The notes below the pieces were generated by a model. The model was not told the origin of the DNA. It made no database searches and was given only the letters and a program-made list of their open reading frames with translations. A program made the translations under genes and the position numbers. Positions 2,860 through 14,530 of a stretch of 20,729 bases of DNA are shown piece by piece; the stretch's first letter is position 1; each line of letters begins with the position of its first letter. The stretch lies in IMG/VR virus record IMGVR_UViG_3300020417_002118, positions 1-20,729 of that record. The stretch is one strand, 5' to 3'. The stretch comes from a virus.

Positions 2860-3573
2860 ATGGAAAAGATAGTTCTATCCCCCCCTATGAGTAATCTTCA
2901 GATTTTCTCCCCCTCGTACTCAGGAAAAACAACTCGCATTTTAGGAACGTACACGCTCGAAAAAAGAAGAGGTCTTTGGAGAGTCCTCACAACTCTGAAA
3001 AGAGCGGAAGGGGGTTGGTTAAATAATGTAGGTCTACGAAATGGTGGTATAGACTCTATCCCCAATAAAAGAGCAATCATTTCTATCAGCTCTCTTGGAG
3101 ATCAAGATTGGTACGCTCTAGTTGAAGAAATAAAAAGCAAACCTAAAGTCATAGGGGTGGAGCTTAACATTTCATGCCCTAACGCAGAGGTGAATCAGCT
3201 ACCTCCCGATCTTCTTGGGGAAATGAACCGTTCATTTCAGAATGTAGTCGTAAAAGCACCTCATATCTGTACCCTTGATTATCTTCTGAGGCTTGTGGAT
3301 ATGGGCGTTAAAACCATTCACATTTCAAACACAAAAAAAACTGTAGAGGGTGCGCTCTCAGGAAGGTCTTTGGTCGAAAGAAATCTACAGACGATCAGAG
3401 ACTTGAAAGTTTTAAGACCTAGTGTGAAAGTGGTCGGAGGGGGTGGGATATACGACCTTGATACGCTGTTGAGATATGAAGATGTAGGGGCTGACCATTT
3501 CAGTTTAAGTACCGTCTTGTTCAACCCTTTGAAGTCTAGGAAATTAATAAGAGAATATTACGAAAGGAGTTGA
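2860..3573 (+). CDS. pyrD: Dihydroorotate dehydrogenase-like flavin-barrel protein, shortened
   Basis: This 237-residue protein resembles class 1 dihydroorotate dehydrogenase, which oxidises dihydroorotate to orotate in pyrimidine synthesis using FMN. Class 1A enzymes are about 310 residues, so this one is short at the N-terminus and in loops. Visible motifs are TLEKRRG (32-38), NNVGLRN (55-61), NISCPN with the presumed catalytic Cys106 (103-108), Lys132, Asn157-Thr158, GALSG (164-168) and the phosphate-binding GGGGI (193-197). These match most orotate and FMN contacts of the Lactococcus enzyme. The lysine that normally sits just before TLEK is Gly/Thr here (ILGTYTLEK). The start at 2860 has only a weak ribosome site; the next ATG (2887) has none. 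It stands alone on the plus strand, divergent from the tail fibre across 84 bases that include GGTATAAAGT, a possible promoter. It could be a host-derived metabolic gene boosting nucleotide supply, or a diverged barrel with another substrate. Confidence 0.75.
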   Translation: MEKIVLSPPMSNLQIFSPSYSGKTTRILGTYTLEKRRGLWRVLTTLKRAEGGWLNNVGLRNGGIDSIPNKRAIISISSLGDQDWYALVEEIKSKPKVIGVELNISCPNAEVNQLPPDLLGEMNRSFQNVVVKAPHICTLDYLLRLVDMGVKTIHISNTKKTVEGALSGRSLVERNLQTIRDLKVLRPSVKVVGGGGIYDLDTLLRYEDVGADHFSLSTVLFNPLKSRKLIREYYERS

Positions 3574-8471: not shown

Positions 8472-8957
8472 CTATTTACTTTGCCTCTTGAGTGCTCTTT
8501 GGACTCCCCTATAACAAGAAATGCGATCTGAATATCCTGCTATTTTAGCGATCTGACCGTAAGTCATTTTTGTGGTTAATCTGAGCCTTAATGCGAAGTC
8601 TCCCTGATCATGTTTAAAAGGTTCAGGCAGTCCTCTGTCTTCACAAAATCTTCTGATACGAAAGTACACTTTATCTTTGTGGAGGCTCATAAGCTTACCA
8701 ATGTCTTTTACGCTCATACCATTCTTATAAAGCGCATGAAGGTACTCACCATTTCTCCTTCTACGAGGTAAAGGAAATGGTGAGGATGTGAGCCTAGCAT
8801 ACTTCCTAGCTTGATATGTCGCCTGCCTACTAGAGATACCCAAAGCTCTACCTATTTCTCTGTAGGTCATGCCTTGGGAGTACAGAGAATAGGCTTCAAA
8901 GCAAAGAGTGTCTATCAGTCCTCCCAAATCTGATCCCACCAACAAGCGCAGTCCCAT
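8472..8957 (-). CDS. DNA-binding protein with three tandem helix-turn-helix units
   Basis: The 161-residue basic protein contains three similar HTH units spaced about 50 residues apart. They are at about 23-55 (SLYSQGMTYREIGRALGISS), 73-105 (ALYKNGMSVKDIGKLMSLHK) and 123-157 (RLTTKMTYGQIAKIAGYSDR). Each has a 'G/K-M-(T/S)-(Y/V)' turn before the helix, so they look like internal duplications. A basic linker (PRRRR, 64-68) joins units one and two. The gene overlaps the end of the amidase gene by 43 bases. ATG at 8957 has only a weak ribosome site. It is probably a transcription regulator or small sigma-like factor. Targets cannot be inferred. Confidence 0.65.
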   Translation of the reverse strand: MGLRLLVGSDLGGLIDTLCFEAYSLYSQGMTYREIGRALGISSRQATYQARKYARLTSSPFPLPRRRRNGEYLHALYKNGMSVKDIGKLMSLHKDKVYFRIRRFCEDRGLPEPFKHDQGDFALRLRLTTKMTYGQIAKIAGYSDRISCYRGVQRALKRQSK

Positions 8958-9865
8958 TTCTTTCGGGTAATGTGATGATGACCAATAACACCCGTAAAGC
9001 TACCCGTAAGGTAGTCTTTATCTACCACTCCATGATAGAAATCCCCATCATAAGATTGTCCGTCAGAACCTCTAGGGCATTGATAAGGAATGTCGAGAAC
9101 ATCACAGAGAGATTTAATCGCTTCTTTGACAGCGAGAGCTACTCTTGGGTCAAGACTTAAAACCCTTTTATCTCCTCGACCTGTATCATTGTCGATCACT
9201 GAAATGTCGTAGCTCTTTTTAATATAGTGGTCTTTCCATTTCAAGCTCGGTTGCTGACAAATATCAATACCTACAGAATAAGAGTTCGCCCAACCTGCGT
9301 GCCAGCTTTTATGGTGGAGGTCGAGATACTGATAAATGGTAGGCTCTCCATCGGAGCTTACACCAATCCCTGCATGAGAGCTTACCTTTCGGTCAGGGCT
9401 TGAGAATACCCGATGACAATGAACAGGGTCTAATCCTCCCCAATGAACCACGATCATTGTAGGTCGTTTCCCTTTGCGACTTGAGAAATGACCGAACCTA
9501 TGGAGATCAAGCCCTCCTCTTTGGTCGAAGTTCACGGTCTGAACATCAGAATCAATATCTACATTAATGCGCCTATCGTTCAATGTCCAAAAAGGTTGGG
9601 TATCATCTACATGATCGAACTTTTTAAGAAGAGCTGACCATGTACCTCTGCCAAGCTTACCATCAACGTGGCTTCCTGCACCAAAGGTGTCCTCTTGAAA
9701 TGCCTCTACAGCAAGAGCGAACTCATTACTATCATAAGGCATACACAAATTCTGATATGTATCTAAAGCACTCTGCGGAATGTTCCCACCCCAACCTACG
9801 CTTTGAGACGCTTTTGCGTTATATGCACAGGCACTTTTTCTTGATTGAGTTATGGTACTCGACAT
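8915..9865 (-). CDS. Endolysin: N-acetylmuramoyl-L-alanine amidase with peptidoglycan-binding domain
   Basis: The 316-residue protein probably cuts the amide bond between N-acetylmuramic acid and L-alanine to lyse the host. A PG_binding_1-like segment lies at about 48-82 (AVEAFQEDTFGAG, then VDGKLGRGTWSAL). An Amidase_2/PGRP domain covers about 130-316. Likely zinc ligands are His141 (IVVHWGG), His296 (GHHHIT) and Asp305 or Cys306 (KKWDCA), with Lys303 near the active site. The family's 'WHAG' motif is at 188-191, followed by 'SVGIDI'. No signal peptide is visible, so export would need a holin or similar; none is identified here. ATG at 9865 has AAAGG eight bases upstream. The gene is divergent from the chaperonin gene with only 27 bases between starts. 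Confidence 0.88.
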   Translation of the reverse strand: MSSTITQSRKSACAYNAKASQSVGWGGNIPQSALDTYQNLCMPYDSNEFALAVEAFQEDTFGAGSHVDGKLGRGTWSALLKKFDHVDDTQPFWTLNDRRINVDIDSDVQTVNFDQRGGLDLHRFGHFSSRKGKRPTMIVVHWGGLDPVHCHRVFSSPDRKVSSHAGIGVSSDGEPTIYQYLDLHHKSWHAGWANSYSVGIDICQQPSLKWKDHYIKKSYDISVIDNDTGRGDKRVLSLDPRVALAVKEAIKSLCDVLDIPYQCPRGSDGQSYDGDFYHGVVDKDYLTGSFTGVIGHHHITRKKWDCACWWDQIWED

Positions 9866-9892: not shown

Positions 9893-11260
9893 ATGAGTTT
9901 CCGACAAATGATACCCGATATAGAAGAAATATCATCACTATTAGTAATCTCTCACGCTTCTAGTGGTAAAAGTATCGCAATCACTAGAAATAATCAGCAT
10001 TTTTCTAATCTTTCAGCTAAGTCTACTCTGAACGAGTGGACTCCTAGACATAAATTAGTCCAAAGTGCTTTACTTGATGTGGTAGGAAGCGGAGATGGAG
10101 GTAAGTTAGGGTCTTTTATCACCATTTCTTTGATCAGGTCTTTAGCAAAGCATAAACATGGGGGACACCCTGACCTCACAAAAGAAATACTCTCACATTT
10201 AGATGAAGTAATCGCTAATATTTCTGAGAAATCTGTAGAGTCGAAGAAAGAACATCTAATATCAGTAGGTGAAGATTTAGATTTTGCAGACCAACTTGCA
10301 GACGCAGTATTTCTAGGTGGCGCAGAAACTCACATATCATTGGAGAGGTATGGAGGAACAGGTTGTGAAGTAATAGAGTCAGAAAGTTTACTGACAGAAG
10401 CTCGACCTTTACATATTTCTGAACAAGTTTCCTTGAAAGGTTCTATGGTCGCTTTACTCCCAACTAGAGTATCTAGCTTTAAAGATGTAGCAGAGCCTCT
10501 TGAGCTTATGGGTACTTTCCCAAACAGACCTCTAGTTATTATCGCCCCTATGATGAGAGGAGAAGCTCTCGCTACGATTAAGAGAAATAGAGATGAGGGT
10601 GTTGTTGAAGTGTATGGGGTCGAGGCTCCTTTAGTTACTTGGGGCAAAGGGTGGTTAGAAGATGTAGCTTCTTTTACGGGGGGTACTTTATACGACTCAT
10701 TTCTTCATTCAGAGTTCAAACCCTATATGTTCGGCTCTGCTAGAGAGATCACACTCAAAAACAAAGAAATGATTATCGACCCTTATGATGATCACGCTGA
10801 AGTTACAGCCGAGCGCATTTCCCAACTCTTATATGAGGCGAACAACTCCCCTCACTCACATACCCAAGACTTGTGGAGGAAAAGAGCGGCTTCTTTGGGA
10901 GGAACTTTGATCAGAGTCAAGGTCGGAGGTACTACAGAAGCGGAAGCAAGACTTCGTAGAAATAAAGCTGAGAAAGCCATGCTTTCGATGGGTATGATGT
11001 TGGAGGGAGGTCATGTCGAAGGAGCTATCCCGACACTCTCAGAAATAAAAGGAATACACCCTATAATAGATAGGGCTTTAGTCGCTCCTCTTAGAGTAGT
11101 TGCGATCAATAAGAGACTTAACACCTTGGAACAAGCGAAGAAATGTTCTCCTAAACTGTACGAGCCTTTCCCTCTTACAAGACTTCTTTCTTTAGTTCGA
11201 TCTAGTTTCTCAGTCGCCACAACCATTTGTAGCGTAGCAAGGATAATAAATAAGAAATGA
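9893..11260 (+). CDS. groEL: Shortened GroEL-like chaperonin, apparently without ATPase residues
   Basis: The 455-residue protein (GroEL is about 548) is collinear with type I chaperonin. Matching segments are SGDGGKLGSF (66-75, GroEL's GDGTTT loop), the apical-domain RPLVIIAPMMRGEALATI (212-229), VEAPLVTWGKGWLEDVASF and TGGTLYD (243-268), the intermediate-domain 'RAASLGGTLIRVKVGGTTEAE' region (331-351), and the C-terminal PLTRLLSLVRSSFSVATT (427-444). Conserved ATP-site residues are lost. The DGTTT threonines are Gly-Lys-Leu. The catalytic Asp398 position is Lys361. The region holding Asp495 is deleted. The N-terminal strand is also trimmed. ATG at 9893 has GAGGA at good spacing. Phage GroELs are known (for example in phage EL), but this looks like a degenerate form that could act as an ATP-independent holdase, a modifier of host GroEL, or a repurposed ring protein. 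Confidence 0.82.
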   Translation: MSFRQMIPDIEEISSLLVISHASSGKSIAITRNNQHFSNLSAKSTLNEWTPRHKLVQSALLDVVGSGDGGKLGSFITISLIRSLAKHKHGGHPDLTKEILSHLDEVIANISEKSVESKKEHLISVGEDLDFADQLADAVFLGGAETHISLERYGGTGCEVIESESLLTEARPLHISEQVSLKGSMVALLPTRVSSFKDVAEPLELMGTFPNRPLVIIAPMMRGEALATIKRNRDEGVVEVYGVEAPLVTWGKGWLEDVASFTGGTLYDSFLHSEFKPYMFGSAREITLKNKEMIIDPYDDHAEVTAERISQLLYEANNSPHSHTQDLWRKRAASLGGTLIRVKVGGTTEAEARLRRNKAEKAMLSMGMMLEGGHVEGAIPTLSEIKGIHPIIDRALVAPLRVVAINKRLNTLEQAKKCSPKLYEPFPLTRLLSLVRSSFSVATTICSVARIINKK

Positions 11261-11658
11261 GAAGTAGAAGAATTAACTACAGAAGTGTATCAACCCCAAA
11301 AGACCTCGAAGTCTTTGAATGGGCTTTGATTGAGGGAGACTCAGTAAAGAATGCCTTTCTTGAGGGTAAACAACGCTATCTATTTCTTAGGGAAGCTAAA
11401 CGCTACTACATTCTCCCATCTGAAAGAACTCCTCTAACTAAAGAGGAAGGGATTATAGAGATGAGGTCGATTGAGGTAATTCAGCTTCCAAAGTCCTACG
11501 TTCTCGTAATAATCTTATCCTCAGATACGTTTTTGTTCTTCACGGACAGAGTAAACCCTCATAGGAAATTGCTTGATCAAGTAATCTCCGAATATGAGGC
11601 AGAGGGTATTATTTCCGAAGAACTATTGAGTAAATACCATAGCTTAGAAGGGTTTTAA
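11257..11658 (+). CDS. Hypothetical protein, 133 residues
   Basis: The start ATG overlaps the chaperonin stop (ATGA), so it is translationally coupled to it. A weak AAGGA lies 13 bases upstream. The N-terminus is very basic. The middle has strand-rich segments (YLFLREAKRYYILP, then 'VLVIILSSDTFLFF') and the C-terminus has an acidic helix (about 105-133). There is no signal peptide. I do not recognise a family. The coupling hints at a function with the chaperonin, which is inference only. Confidence 0.65.
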   Translation: MRSRRINYRSVSTPKDLEVFEWALIEGDSVKNAFLEGKQRYLFLREAKRYYILPSERTPLTKEEGIIEMRSIEVIQLPKSYVLVIILSSDTFLFFTDRVNPHRKLLDQVISEYEAEGIISEELLSKYHSLEGF

Positions 11659-11673
11659 GAAAGGTAAATACCG

Positions 11674-12252
11674 ATGATAGAAATAAAGATTGGCGATTGT
11701 GCAGAAAGACTCAAAGACCTAGAAGATAACTCGGTTGACGCTATTATTTCTGACCCTCCCTATGGACTCAAGTTTATGTCAAAGGGTTGGGACAATATCG
11801 GTGAGGGTAGTCAACAAAGAGAATGGCATAGGAAATGGCTGACTGAAGCTCACAGGGTGTTGAAACCCAACGGAGTGATCAAAGCTTTTAGTGGCTCAAG
11901 AACTTTCCACCACCTGATAGCTATGATGGGAGAAATAGGTTTCTCAGACTTGAGGGTAGAAGCATGGACTTATGGTTCGGGCTTCCCCAAGTCTTTAAAT
12001 GTAAGTAAAGCGATAGACAAAAGTTTAGGTGCTGAAAGAATCGTAGTAGGTACACAAAAGATGTCAGGCACTGCCCGTAAGATTAAAGGTACGAATAAAC
12101 ATGGTGGAAAGATGGCAGGCATTGACCAAGAGTATGAAGAGACAAGTATTGAAATAACAGTTTCATCAAGCAAAGAAGGTAAACAATGGGAGGGTTGGGG
12201 TACTGCGCTCAAACCCTCTTGGGAACCCATTTGTATAGGAGTTAAGAAATGA
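11674..12252 (+). CDS. DNA methyltransferase N-terminal (catalytic) half, copy A
   Basis: The 192-residue product matches only the first half of a beta-class N4-cytosine/N6-adenine DNA methyltransferase. It carries catalytic motif IV as SDPPYGLKFMSKGWDNI (DPPY at 27-30), then KPNGVIKAFSGSRTFHHL (64-81), YGSGFPKS (100-107) and the WGTALKPSWEPI segment near the C-terminus. The SAM-binding motif I (DPFxGSGTTG) is absent and is supplied by the gene at 13147. Residues about 108-168, the presumed target-recognition part, differ from copy B (12569-13147) while both ends are nearly identical. ATG at 11674 has AAAGG nine bases upstream. The stop overlaps the next start (ATGA). The usual fused protein continues with RKPL, which is exactly where the next gene picks up. 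Confidence 0.85.
   Translation: MIEIKIGDCAERLKDLEDNSVDAIISDPPYGLKFMSKGWDNIGEGSQQREWHRKWLTEAHRVLKPNGVIKAFSGSRTFHHLIAMMGEIGFSDLRVEAWTYGSGFPKSLNVSKAIDKSLGAERIVVGTQKMSGTARKIKGTNKHGGKMAGIDQEYEETSIEITVSSSKEGKQWEGWGTALKPSWEPICIGVKK
11704..11756 (+). repeat. Direct repeat, copy 1 of methyltransferase duplication
   Basis: These 53 bases are identical to 12599-12651, an offset of exactly 895 bases. The offset also separates the two start codons (11674 and 12569). The surrounding similarity covers about the first 320 bases of each gene without insertions, then stops at the variable segment and resumes at the 3' ends. Confidence 0.9.
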
Positions 12253-12572
12253 TCATCACTATCCTTAGAAAACCTTTAGATGGTAGCGTGGCTGACAACA
12301 CCCTTAATCATGGGTGTGGGGCTATAAACATAGATGACACTAGAGTAGGCGATATAGTCCAAGACACGTCTAAGAATGGAAGATCGCCCACTTCACATAA
12401 AGCGACAGTCTTCCAATCGGGCTTAAAAGAGAGCTTCGTAGGTCAGATGACCGTAGGGAGATGGCCTGCTAACTTTATCCTTAAAGGCGAAAAGGCTATT
12501 GAAGCTCTCGATAATAAAAGTGAAAAAAGCTCAGAGTTCTTCAAGCAGTTTAAGGAAGATAATGACCAATGA
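12249..12572 (+). CDS. Methyltransferase linker segment as a separate gene
   Basis: The 107-residue product corresponds to the middle of fused phage and bacterial methyltransferases of this family. RKPLDGSVADNTLNHGCGAI (7-26) with NIDDTRVG, and later GRWPANFIL (70-78), are typical of that linker. It has its own ribosome site (AGGAG, 7-base spacing) and overlaps copy A by 4 bases (ATGA) and copy B by 4 bases (ATGA). It has neither DPPY nor the SAM motif and cannot be an enzyme alone. It may be a structural piece of a multi-subunit enzyme, or a remnant of the fused gene. Its intact frame and ribosome site favour expression. Confidence 0.65.
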   Translation: MIITILRKPLDGSVADNTLNHGCGAINIDDTRVGDIVQDTSKNGRSPTSHKATVFQSGLKESFVGQMTVGRWPANFILKGEKAIEALDNKSEKSSEFFKQFKEDNDQ

Positions 12573-13147
12573 TAAAAATAAAGATTGGTGATTGCACTGA
12601 AAGACTCAAAGACCTAGAAGATAACTCGGTTGACGCTATTATTTCTGACCCCCCTTATGGACTCAAGTTTATGTCCAAAGGTTGGGATAATATCGGAGAG
12701 GGTAGTCAGCAAAGGGAATGGCATAGGAAATGGTTAGTGGAATCATATCGAGTTCTTAAACCTAACGGAGTGATCAAAGCTTTCTCAGGGTCTAGGACAT
12801 TTCATCATCTAATAGCGATGATGGAAGAAATAGGTTTCTCAGACTTGAAGGTTGAGGCTTGGGTTTACGGTTCGGGCTTTCCTAAATCCCACAACCTCGC
12901 TAAACAGTTTGAAAAAAAAGCAGGGGTTGAGGGCGAAGTAATTGGCTATTCTAAAGGAGTTTCCGTTGAAGACTCTCAAGGGTATGGTGGGATTGGTCGA
13001 GGTGCTGTGGGCATTGTTCAAAAAGCCGTAGACCTACCAATCAGAGCATTAGTTACTGAAGAAGCTAAAACATGGAATGGTTGGGGTACTGCTCTCAAGC
13101 CCTCATGGGAGCCTATTTGCATTGGAATTAAGAAAGGAAATAACTAA
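12569..13147 (+). CDS. DNA methyltransferase N-terminal (catalytic) half, copy B
   Basis: It has the same length (192 residues) and layout as copy A, with DPPY at 27-30, FSGSRTFHHL and YGSGFPKS. By hand alignment about 8 of the first 107 residues differ. Residues about 108-168 are different (for example GYGGIGRGAVGIVQ against the GTNKHGGKMAG region in A). The ends converge again at WGTALKPSWEPICIG. This is the pattern expected of two specificity variants. The start overlaps the linker gene (ATGA), with AAGGA 12 bases upstream. The stop overlaps the next start (TAATG). It lacks motif I, so SAM binding must come from the downstream subunit. Confidence 0.85.
   Translation: MIKIKIGDCTERLKDLEDNSVDAIISDPPYGLKFMSKGWDNIGEGSQQREWHRKWLVESYRVLKPNGVIKAFSGSRTFHHLIAMMEEIGFSDLKVEAWVYGSGFPKSHNLAKQFEKKAGVEGEVIGYSKGVSVEDSQGYGGIGRGAVGIVQKAVDLPIRALVTEEAKTWNGWGTALKPSWEPICIGIKKGNN
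12599..12651 (+). repeat. Direct repeat, copy 2 of methyltransferase duplication
   Basis: These 53 bases are identical to 11704-11756. Together with the flanking similarity they could support recombination between the two gene copies, deleting or exchanging 895 bases. Confidence 0.9.
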
Positions 13148-13956
13148 TGGAAGAAATGATCGAATACTTCAAAACAATGATTACACCTCCCGTAGAAGAC
13201 GCTTGTATTATCGTAGGGAAGCCATCAGAAATAGATTACGAAAAGTATCGTATCATCGAGGGTAATAGTATCGTACCACTCTACGATCCTGTCGCTCATG
13301 GAGCTATCCTGTTAGATGAGCCTACTGAAGAAGAATCACAAAAGCTCATGGCTATTCTAAAACCTGGCGCACACATCGTACTTATACCTAAAGACATAGG
13401 GTACAAAGGTGTGATCGCTCTTGAAGACCAAGGGTTTGAAGTGAGAGACGCTATCTTTGTAGGAGAAAACTCTGAGGAGTTTCATTACACCTCTAAAGCG
13501 AGCCGATCTGAAAGAGAAGCAGGCTTAAAAGGGTTCAATAAAAAGGACAGCTCGGAGATGACAGGTCGGAAAGAAAACTCTAAAGGTTTGATGAGAGTTA
13601 GAGAAGACGGTTCGGTAGGCACAAACCCCTATGCAGGCACAGCAGGAGGTCAAAACCCAAGAGCAAACATTCACCCTACAGTCAAACCAATCGACATTAT
13701 GGAGTGGTGTGGTCGAGACATAGCCCCTAACTCTAAAGTCGTAGACCCATTTCTTGGAAGCGGTACTACGGGTATAGCTATGAGCCGTTTAGGACATGAC
13801 TTTGTGGGTATAGAGCTGAACCCCGAATATGCAAAGATATGTGAGGGTAGGATTAGACATTGGATGCCTATCGGCTCAGAAATAGTATCGGAAGCTGAGG
13901 TTGGTAAAGCCGAAGCTCAAGAGGGTGATACTATTTCCATCTTTGACTTGTTTTAG
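13147..13956 (+). CDS. DNA methyltransferase C-terminal (SAM-binding) half
   Basis: The 269-residue product carries the second half of the beta-class enzyme: TSKASRSEREAGL (115-127), NIHPTVKPIDIMEW (174-187), SAM-binding motif I DPFLGSGTTG (200-209) and VGIELNPEYAKI (220-231). Its first 110 residues look like a decayed N-terminal half: ILLDEPT (54-60) sits where DPPY would be, followed by LKPGAHIVLIPKD and ALEDQGFEVRDAIFV. Without DPPY it should be inactive alone and needs copy A or B. The ATG at 13147 has AAAGGA eight bases upstream and is coupled to copy B by TAATG. The C-terminal tail is acidic. It converges with the minus-strand gene at 13964 across seven bases without a visible terminator. 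Confidence 0.85.
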   Translation: MEEMIEYFKTMITPPVEDACIIVGKPSEIDYEKYRIIEGNSIVPLYDPVAHGAILLDEPTEEESQKLMAILKPGAHIVLIPKDIGYKGVIALEDQGFEVRDAIFVGENSEEFHYTSKASRSEREAGLKGFNKKDSSEMTGRKENSKGLMRVREDGSVGTNPYAGTAGGQNPRANIHPTVKPIDIMEWCGRDIAPNSKVVDPFLGSGTTGIAMSRLGHDFVGIELNPEYAKICEGRIRHWMPIGSEIVSEAEVGKAEAQEGDTISIFDLF

Positions 13957-13963
13957 TCAGTGC

Positions 13964-14530
13964 TTAAGAAATTCTAAAGTAACCTTTAGTTGGGCTGTAA
14001 ACTGACCCTAAACTACTCAGACGAGACATGAGTCCATCTTGGATAGCACTTAAGTATTCCTCAAGTGTCTCAAAGCCATCTTCTCTCGCCCATACATTAA
14101 AGTTTCTGACGGGGGTAATCGTAATCTGAGTCATACCACTATAAAGAGAGCTTTTTTCTTTTTGTGCGTCTACATCAACACCTAGACTTGAAGAATGTAG
14201 CCAATACCTCTTAGAAGACACTGAAGTGTGCATGATTATTTCTTCTTTGGTGTTTTTTTCAATGATTATATTTGGGAGTTGCAACTCTTCAGGCGTTTCC
14301 AATTCAACGATTAACCCACTGTTGTTAATTCTAATGCTGTATTCCCACCCCATCTGATCAATGAAAGATTCAATCCTTATGGTTAATAGGCGAAGATCTC
14401 TTAGGTCTAAAGAAATGCCTGTAAAACGAAGTGTCAGACTTGATTTCTCTATGTGAGTTTCGAGTGATCTACCAAAAACTTTTTTAGCTTTTAGTGCTAC
14501 TTGGTCATTAAAGTTTTCCATCATTTTCAT
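13964..14530 (-). CDS. Hypothetical protein, about 188 residues
   Basis: I do not recognise a family. The start is taken as ATG 14530, which overlaps the upstream stop (ATGA). The ATG at 14524 is better spaced from AGGA and is a close alternative. An in-frame TTG at 14566 has no support. The protein has an N-terminal helix with basic residues, a strand-rich centre, and a C-terminal part rich in Ser/Tyr/Phe with 'EDGFETLEEYLSAIQDGL' as a clear helix near 150-170. There is no membrane segment. It is coupled with the Cys-His-Asp protein gene upstream. Confidence 0.65.
   Translation of the reverse strand: MKMMENFNDQVALKAKKVFGRSLETHIEKSSLTLRFTGISLDLRDLRLLTIRIESFIDQMGWEYSIRINNSGLIVELETPEELQLPNIIIEKNTKEEIIMHTSVSSKRYWLHSSSLGVDVDAQKEKSSLYSGMTQITITPVRNFNVWAREDGFETLEEYLSAIQDGLMSRLSSLGSVYSPTKGYFRIS

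Follow-up and report, generated by a model that had tools for sequence, protein, structure and literature searches.

A phage gene array for a candidate three-part beta-class amino-methyltransferase with several catalytic and target-recognition subunits

How do four short overlapping genes, among which the motifs of one DNA methyltransferase are divided, contribute to an enzyme, and what does it mean that one kind of part is present twice? The window, i.e. the whole 20.7-kb stretch of DNA that was analysed, is a phage fragment carrying RecA, RuvC-like, SbcC/D-like, DnaX-like and further replication and repair genes. Upstream of the array lie a GroEL-like chaperonin gene (9893-11260; phrog_5725, E 4e-21), which stays a neighbour of the array in related phages, and a small unknown ORF; on the other side are two minus-strand unknown ORFs. 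A dihydroorotate dehydrogenase-like protein is also encoded in the window, at 2860-3573 (PF01180, E 1.7e-10). The features of the array are as follows.

11674..12252, plus strand: gene A, 192 aa; predicted DPPY catalytic-half subunit with a variable block at residues ~108-168 and the conserved end GWGTALKPSWEPICIG
11704..11756, plus strand: 53-bp tract in A, identical in B; possible gene-conversion tract
12249..12572, plus strand: gene L, 107 aa; probable DNA-reading part, RKPL..variable block..GRWPANFIL..FFKQF; phrog_3008
12569..13147, plus strand: gene B, 192 aa; second predicted DPPY catalytic-half subunit, with ends as in A and another variable block
12599..12651, plus strand: 53-bp tract in B, identical in A; possible gene-conversion tract
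13147..13956, plus strand: gene C, 269 aa; predicted SAM subunit with a pseudo-catalytic N-terminal half (DEPT), then KASR..HPTVKP..DPFLGSGTTG

All four genes are intact, start with ATG and occupy three frames, one of them common to A and C. They are joined by overlaps of 4 bases (A/L and L/B) and 1 base (B/C), and a ribosome-site-like sequence lies 5' of each; ORF calls and upstream sequence agree with the layout given in the initial annotation. The possibility of one gene broken by a sequencing frameshift was rejected since the separate genes recur across many independent contigs. Chance architecture is excluded because relatives retain the identical layout, the closest at 93-95% amino acid identity with far-diverged silent sites.

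Analysis of protein families revealed that the parts of a beta-class enzyme (PF01555, N6_N4_Mtase) are found across the subunits, in the order of that class, DPPY before HPTVKP and DPF.GSGT. The first part of the PF01555 profile is matched by A (residues 21-108, E 7.5e-13) and B (residues 21-115, E 5e-13), which cover profile positions 1-90/99, and the later part by C (residues 65-232 to profile positions 37-219, E 4.1e-15). B and C also match consecutive parts of M1.HpyAVI: in sequence comparison its residues 1-117 were matched by B 1-107 and its residues 162-230 by the C profile. Beta-class motifs stand together in one polypeptide, but here motif IV is in A and B and motif I in C only. It had been noted before that A and B both carry DPPY and lack motif I, and that DPFLGSGTTG occurs only in the last gene, where motif IV has decayed to DEPT; our analysis bears out both observations. 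Matches to DNA methyltransferases were all to amino-methyltransferases, and no C5-methyltransferase family was matched in Pfam or NCBIfam. No HsdS or HsdM family matched A, L, B or C in the family profile searches or, among the matches listed, in a further search.

The gene with GRWPAN had been taken for a linker, and this did not hold: L matches phrog_3008, a methyltransferase family, across the RKPL..GRWPAN segment (E 1.4e-9), and is a protein segment kept in every array described below. The L segment of single-chain relatives, both phage and bacterial, falls between the catalytic half and motif X, which is where the target-recognition region of beta-class enzymes lies. Since the matching segment occupies this position, L can be regarded as a third part of the enzyme; judged by its sequence it is the probable DNA-reading (target-recognition) subunit and looks like an obligatory part. 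For the GRWPAN segment the sequence search detected no relative of solved structure.

Searches of viral contigs revealed 30 further contigs with such a locus (31 including the window), some over 200 kb. Every one of the 31 arrays contains a single C together with one or more A and one or more L. C is the final gene, and in one record an extra conventional methyltransferase lies beyond it. The genes of these arrays overlap by 4 nt (ATGA) at 60 junctions and by 1 nt at 13. The flanks are conserved (amidase-GroEL-array-RuvC-RecA) and the content of the array differs within them: the orders A-L-A-C (window), A-A-L-C, A-L-C, L-A-C, L-A-L-C and L-A-L-A-A-L-A-C were found at this site, and L-L-A-L-C and A-L-L-A-L-L-C with the upstream flank alone. 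In nine whole records (47-376 kb) this single locus accounts for every clear A and L gene and for one C; the other matches in these records are weak and resemble conventional methyltransferases. Among distant phages, L068 has six A, six L and one C, i.e. thirteen part genes, and L123 has six L, then C, two A and one L.

The composition of the arrays bears on another explanation, a two-part enzyme of A or B with C that takes its specificity from the A/B variable block, L being either an accessory or a leftover fusion linker. The variable block of A and B is indeed clear, with constant ends, and the L of the window is short. This explanation is nevertheless unlikely, given that no array is without L and some have several, that single-chain enzymes contain L between the catalytic half and motif X, and that L has up to three variable blocks recurring in new combinations. 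The earlier proposal of one SAM subunit serving two specificity subunits thus holds in part: our results agree with an amino-methyltransferase split into a single SAM subunit and two DPPY subunits that serve as alternatives, but not with specificity by A and B alone, L being kept throughout and carrying most of the variable sequence. Specificity is probably set by A or B together with L.

Counts of A and L vary independently (2A:1L in the window; 1A:1L, 1A:3L and 4A:3L in others), and with no fixed ratio a one-to-one pairing of the parts is impossible. The same counts bear on a single dedicated complex of A, B, L and C, with A and B, for instance, acting on opposite strands of an asymmetric site. 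Beta-class methyltransferases are often dimers, and the window and related contigs share the same pair of A and B variable types, both of which would suit such a complex; however, the numbers of A and L vary freely even among related phages and some arrays have one A, and we regard a dedicated complex as quite improbable.

That the separate genes act in concert is strongly, if indirectly, supported by natural fusions. In the distant phage L065, A, L, the pseudo-half and the SAM half are fused in one 577-aa ORF, L and C are fused in L014 and L066, and many phages and bacteria carry A, L and the SAM half as a single chain. The order given earlier for fused enzymes (DPPY, RKPL..GRWPAN, HPTVKP, motif I) agrees with these single-chain relatives, and the search of related phages for fused and split versions that had been suggested yielded both. 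Against the three-part explanation it counts that all six isolated phages that were inspected encode the enzyme as one chain. The AF2 model of the L065 fusion has a pTM of 0.78; it is biased by single-chain enzymes in the input alignment, in which A and the SAM half are already paired. Foldseek matched this model to M1.HpyAVI, MboIIA and M.BceJIV over ~525-556 columns, with TM up to 0.75 on the target; the alignment length implies that both the catalytic and the SAM half are covered. The model backs the reading of the catalytic half and the SAM half as one methyltransferase, as support and not proof.

The N-terminal 107 residues of C resemble a catalytic half. DPPY is absent from every C homologue examined, and the motif IV position reads GEPT, SEPT, EEPT or DEPT in the group of the window and GTPT or GWST in distant ones. 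Because profile-profile comparison of this half with A gave a weak match (14%, E 0.002), its description as a decayed catalytic half is based on other evidence, namely the Pfam alignment, the matches that its profile finds in the catalytic region of single-chain enzymes and the shared LKPG..ED.GFE.RD. A further variable stretch of C lies before HPTVKP. A quick tree of SAM halves, with few columns, did not separate one from two origins of the C with a pseudo-half. AF2 of C alone gave pLDDT 66 and pTM 0.56, from a shallower alignment than that for the L065 fusion, and structure comparison of this model with whole methyltransferase folds gave no match (TM on target mostly 0.20-0.31). No annotated phage record had a match covering 80% of C. 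The pseudo-half could possibly be a scaffold or a mock second subunit; it might also compete with A, which counts against the three-part explanation. A pseudo-half of this kind is one point in favour of the parts being regulators, A-only or L-only proteins that would attach to C and tune a single main enzyme or its choice of DNA but form no active enzymes of their own, and a decoy role is possible for half-enzymes. DPPY, needless for a pure decoy, is present in 32 of 32 A subunits of the alignment, and this explanation is very improbable.

Comparison with the orthologues of the closest relative, L002, revealed dN/dS values of 0.03 for A, 0.06 for B and 0.08 for C. Across comparisons these three genes range from 0.03 to 0.10 (dS 0.5-1.3), and these low values indicate that they are maintained by strong purifying selection. 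L was compared with more distant relatives only, and gave 0.16-0.25. It is hardly credible on these grounds that the genes are functionless fragments, in decay since a single-chain methyltransferase was duplicated. The loss of motif IV from C and the broken A copies of some relatives (L034) would fit decay, but the ORFs are intact in independent contigs under the selection just described, motif I and DPPY are invariant and the coupling overlaps are conserved.

The relation of A to B was analysed separately. Sequence comparison agrees with the earlier description of matching ends and differing residues ~108-168; this is the one block in which A and B differ, and both block types are also found in other phages. 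Two direct repeats result, a 5' repeat of 300 nt (84% identical, offset 895) and a 3' repeat of 80 nt (83% identical, offset 886). The offset of 895 bases reported as constant thus applies to the 5' repeat only, the 3' offset being smaller because the middle of A and B differs by 9 bases. In the constant parts ~60% of silent sites differ (dS ~1.2, near saturation), and dN/dS rises from 0.05 there to 0.74 in the variable block. By their sequences A and B are old paralogues, and the two types persist side by side in related phages. The 53-base identical run reported before is real; it exceeds the length expected for sequences 83% identical and may reflect local gene conversion at most.

The silent divergence rules out a recent wholesale exchange between A and B. 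It had been suggested that A and B are switchable by recombination between the repeats; the dS of ~1.2, the lack of inverted repeats and the joint persistence of the A and B types speak against this. Only the two direct repeats, and no inverted repeats, were found in 11200-14200, and no site-specific recombinase was found among the window genes scanned with Pfam; the HTH_7 'resolvase' match of 8472-8957 is below its cut-off and covers a helix-turn-helix only. The locus thus has neither the inverted repeats nor the recombinase of a phase-variable invertible methyltransferase locus. As far as sequences can tell, a rapid A/B switch is not supported and slow block shuffling, which is clear over longer times, is supported.

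Such shuffling was found in L, which holds most of the variable sequence. In L proteins, constant anchors frame as many as three variable blocks, for which 15, 7 and 17 alleles were found among 47 distinct L genes; alleles are either at least 50% alike or mostly no more than 30% alike. Alleles recur in different combinations, and eight four-gamete quartets indicate recombination among the blocks. The L of the window is a short form with variable block 1 only, a further point against the three-part explanation. Full-length L proteins share an invariant H..C..C...C set, a possible zinc site. The hybrid gene L052:2143-2655 joins an L-like start to the conserved A C-terminus (TWDGWGTALKPAWEPVCIGVKK) and so directly records recombination between different types of part.

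Several further genes were observed in or beside the arrays. Some arrays contain ORFs that fall under none of the part types; one such ORF of ~155 residues, found in six loci, was considered as a fourth type of subunit and rejected, being a dCMP deaminase; dCMP/cytidine deaminase genes lie at L017:7801-8262, L025:3120-3590, L055:1142-1603, L011:6790-7266, L033:1348-1890 and L019:4001-4597. Inteins interrupt A and C genes of relatives. Intein-type inserts of ~300-430 aa occur in A-type genes (L065:4157-6067 and L005:3504-5270) and in a whole methyltransferase (L064:5437-7290); L065 and L064 share the conserved insert site YG^SGFPKS, the L005 insert is near that site, and the L065 insert has a weak match to Pfam Intein_splicing. 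In the C-type genes L034:7190-9106 and L123:6435-8348 the pseudo-half is separated from the part with motif I by intein-like inserts, which contain Hint and LAGLIDADG domains. The 484-kb uncultured phage LR756508 has a run of methyltransferase genes (L064:5437-10764), in which the gene at 8605-9603, with a degenerate motif I and no DPPY, may encode a pseudo-enzyme partner.

From the composition rule, the conservation, the mosaic blocks, the natural fusions and the selection we infer a three-part beta-class amino-methyltransferase, probably of the N6-adenine type, and consider it probable that interchangeable A/B and L subunits share one C and provide several specificities. A or B would supply motifs IV-VIII as the catalytic half, L would recognise the target, and C would bind SAM with motifs X and I-III; one catalytic half, one L and one C would assemble. 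Exchange of A/B and L would yield several enzymes with different targets from one locus, and arrays would grow, shrink and swap blocks over evolutionary time via recombination in the conserved gene ends and anchors. A likely use would be to mark the genome of the phage itself as protection from several restriction systems of its hosts. A fully combinatorial enzyme in large phages, in which any of n catalytic halves works with any of m mosaic readers and one C to give, via block shuffling, up to n x m specificities (6 x 6 in L068), is a tentative proposal that we put at slightly below even. If the parts mix, phages would build many methylation specificities from few genes, in parallel to HsdS shuffling and with the catalytic half exchangeable too. 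The subunits would then be natural swappable parts for dissecting how beta-class methyltransferases read DNA, and would allow a direct test of how large phages keep pace with diverse host restriction systems.

The literature covered (open-licence papers on split, two-subunit, multispecific and phage-encoded methyltransferases and on huge phages) did not describe this arrangement, and within the reach of these searches an amino-methyltransferase in three parts, whose catalytic and reading subunits are multiplied and mosaic, has no earlier description. Its closest likeness is to single-chain beta-class enzymes of the phrog_67/phrog_3008 type, e.g. Mycobacterium phage OrionPax gp98, which have the same part order: DPPY half, variable block, WEPI/RKPL..GRWPAN..SRFF segment, KASR..HPTVKP and DPF.GSGT. 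M1.HpyAVI, MboIIA, RsrI and CcrM, also single-chain beta-class enzymes, are its structural kin. Unlike these, the array has three kinds of separate genes, multiplied catalytic and L parts and a C with a pseudo-catalytic half. M.AquI and M.EcoHK31I are naturally split C5-methyltransferases (PMC3404938) and likewise form one methyltransferase from separate polypeptides, but they belong to the C5 class and have two fixed subunits, with neither alternative subunits nor arrays. Type I HsdM/HsdS systems undergo TRD shuffling and domain movement (PMC3077401, PMC6265443, PMC12707154); they resemble the array in a common catalytic subunit, swappable specificity sequence and recombination mosaics, whereas the array also multiplies the catalytic half and has no recombinase or inverted repeats at the locus. 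Temperate phages of Bacillus, as described in the papers that cite them (PMC12707154, PMC4081073), encode multispecific C5-methyltransferases with several TRDs per polypeptide. By these accounts they share with the array one core and protection against many restriction systems, but their TRDs reside in a single polypeptide, whereas the parts of the array are separate, exchangeable subunits.
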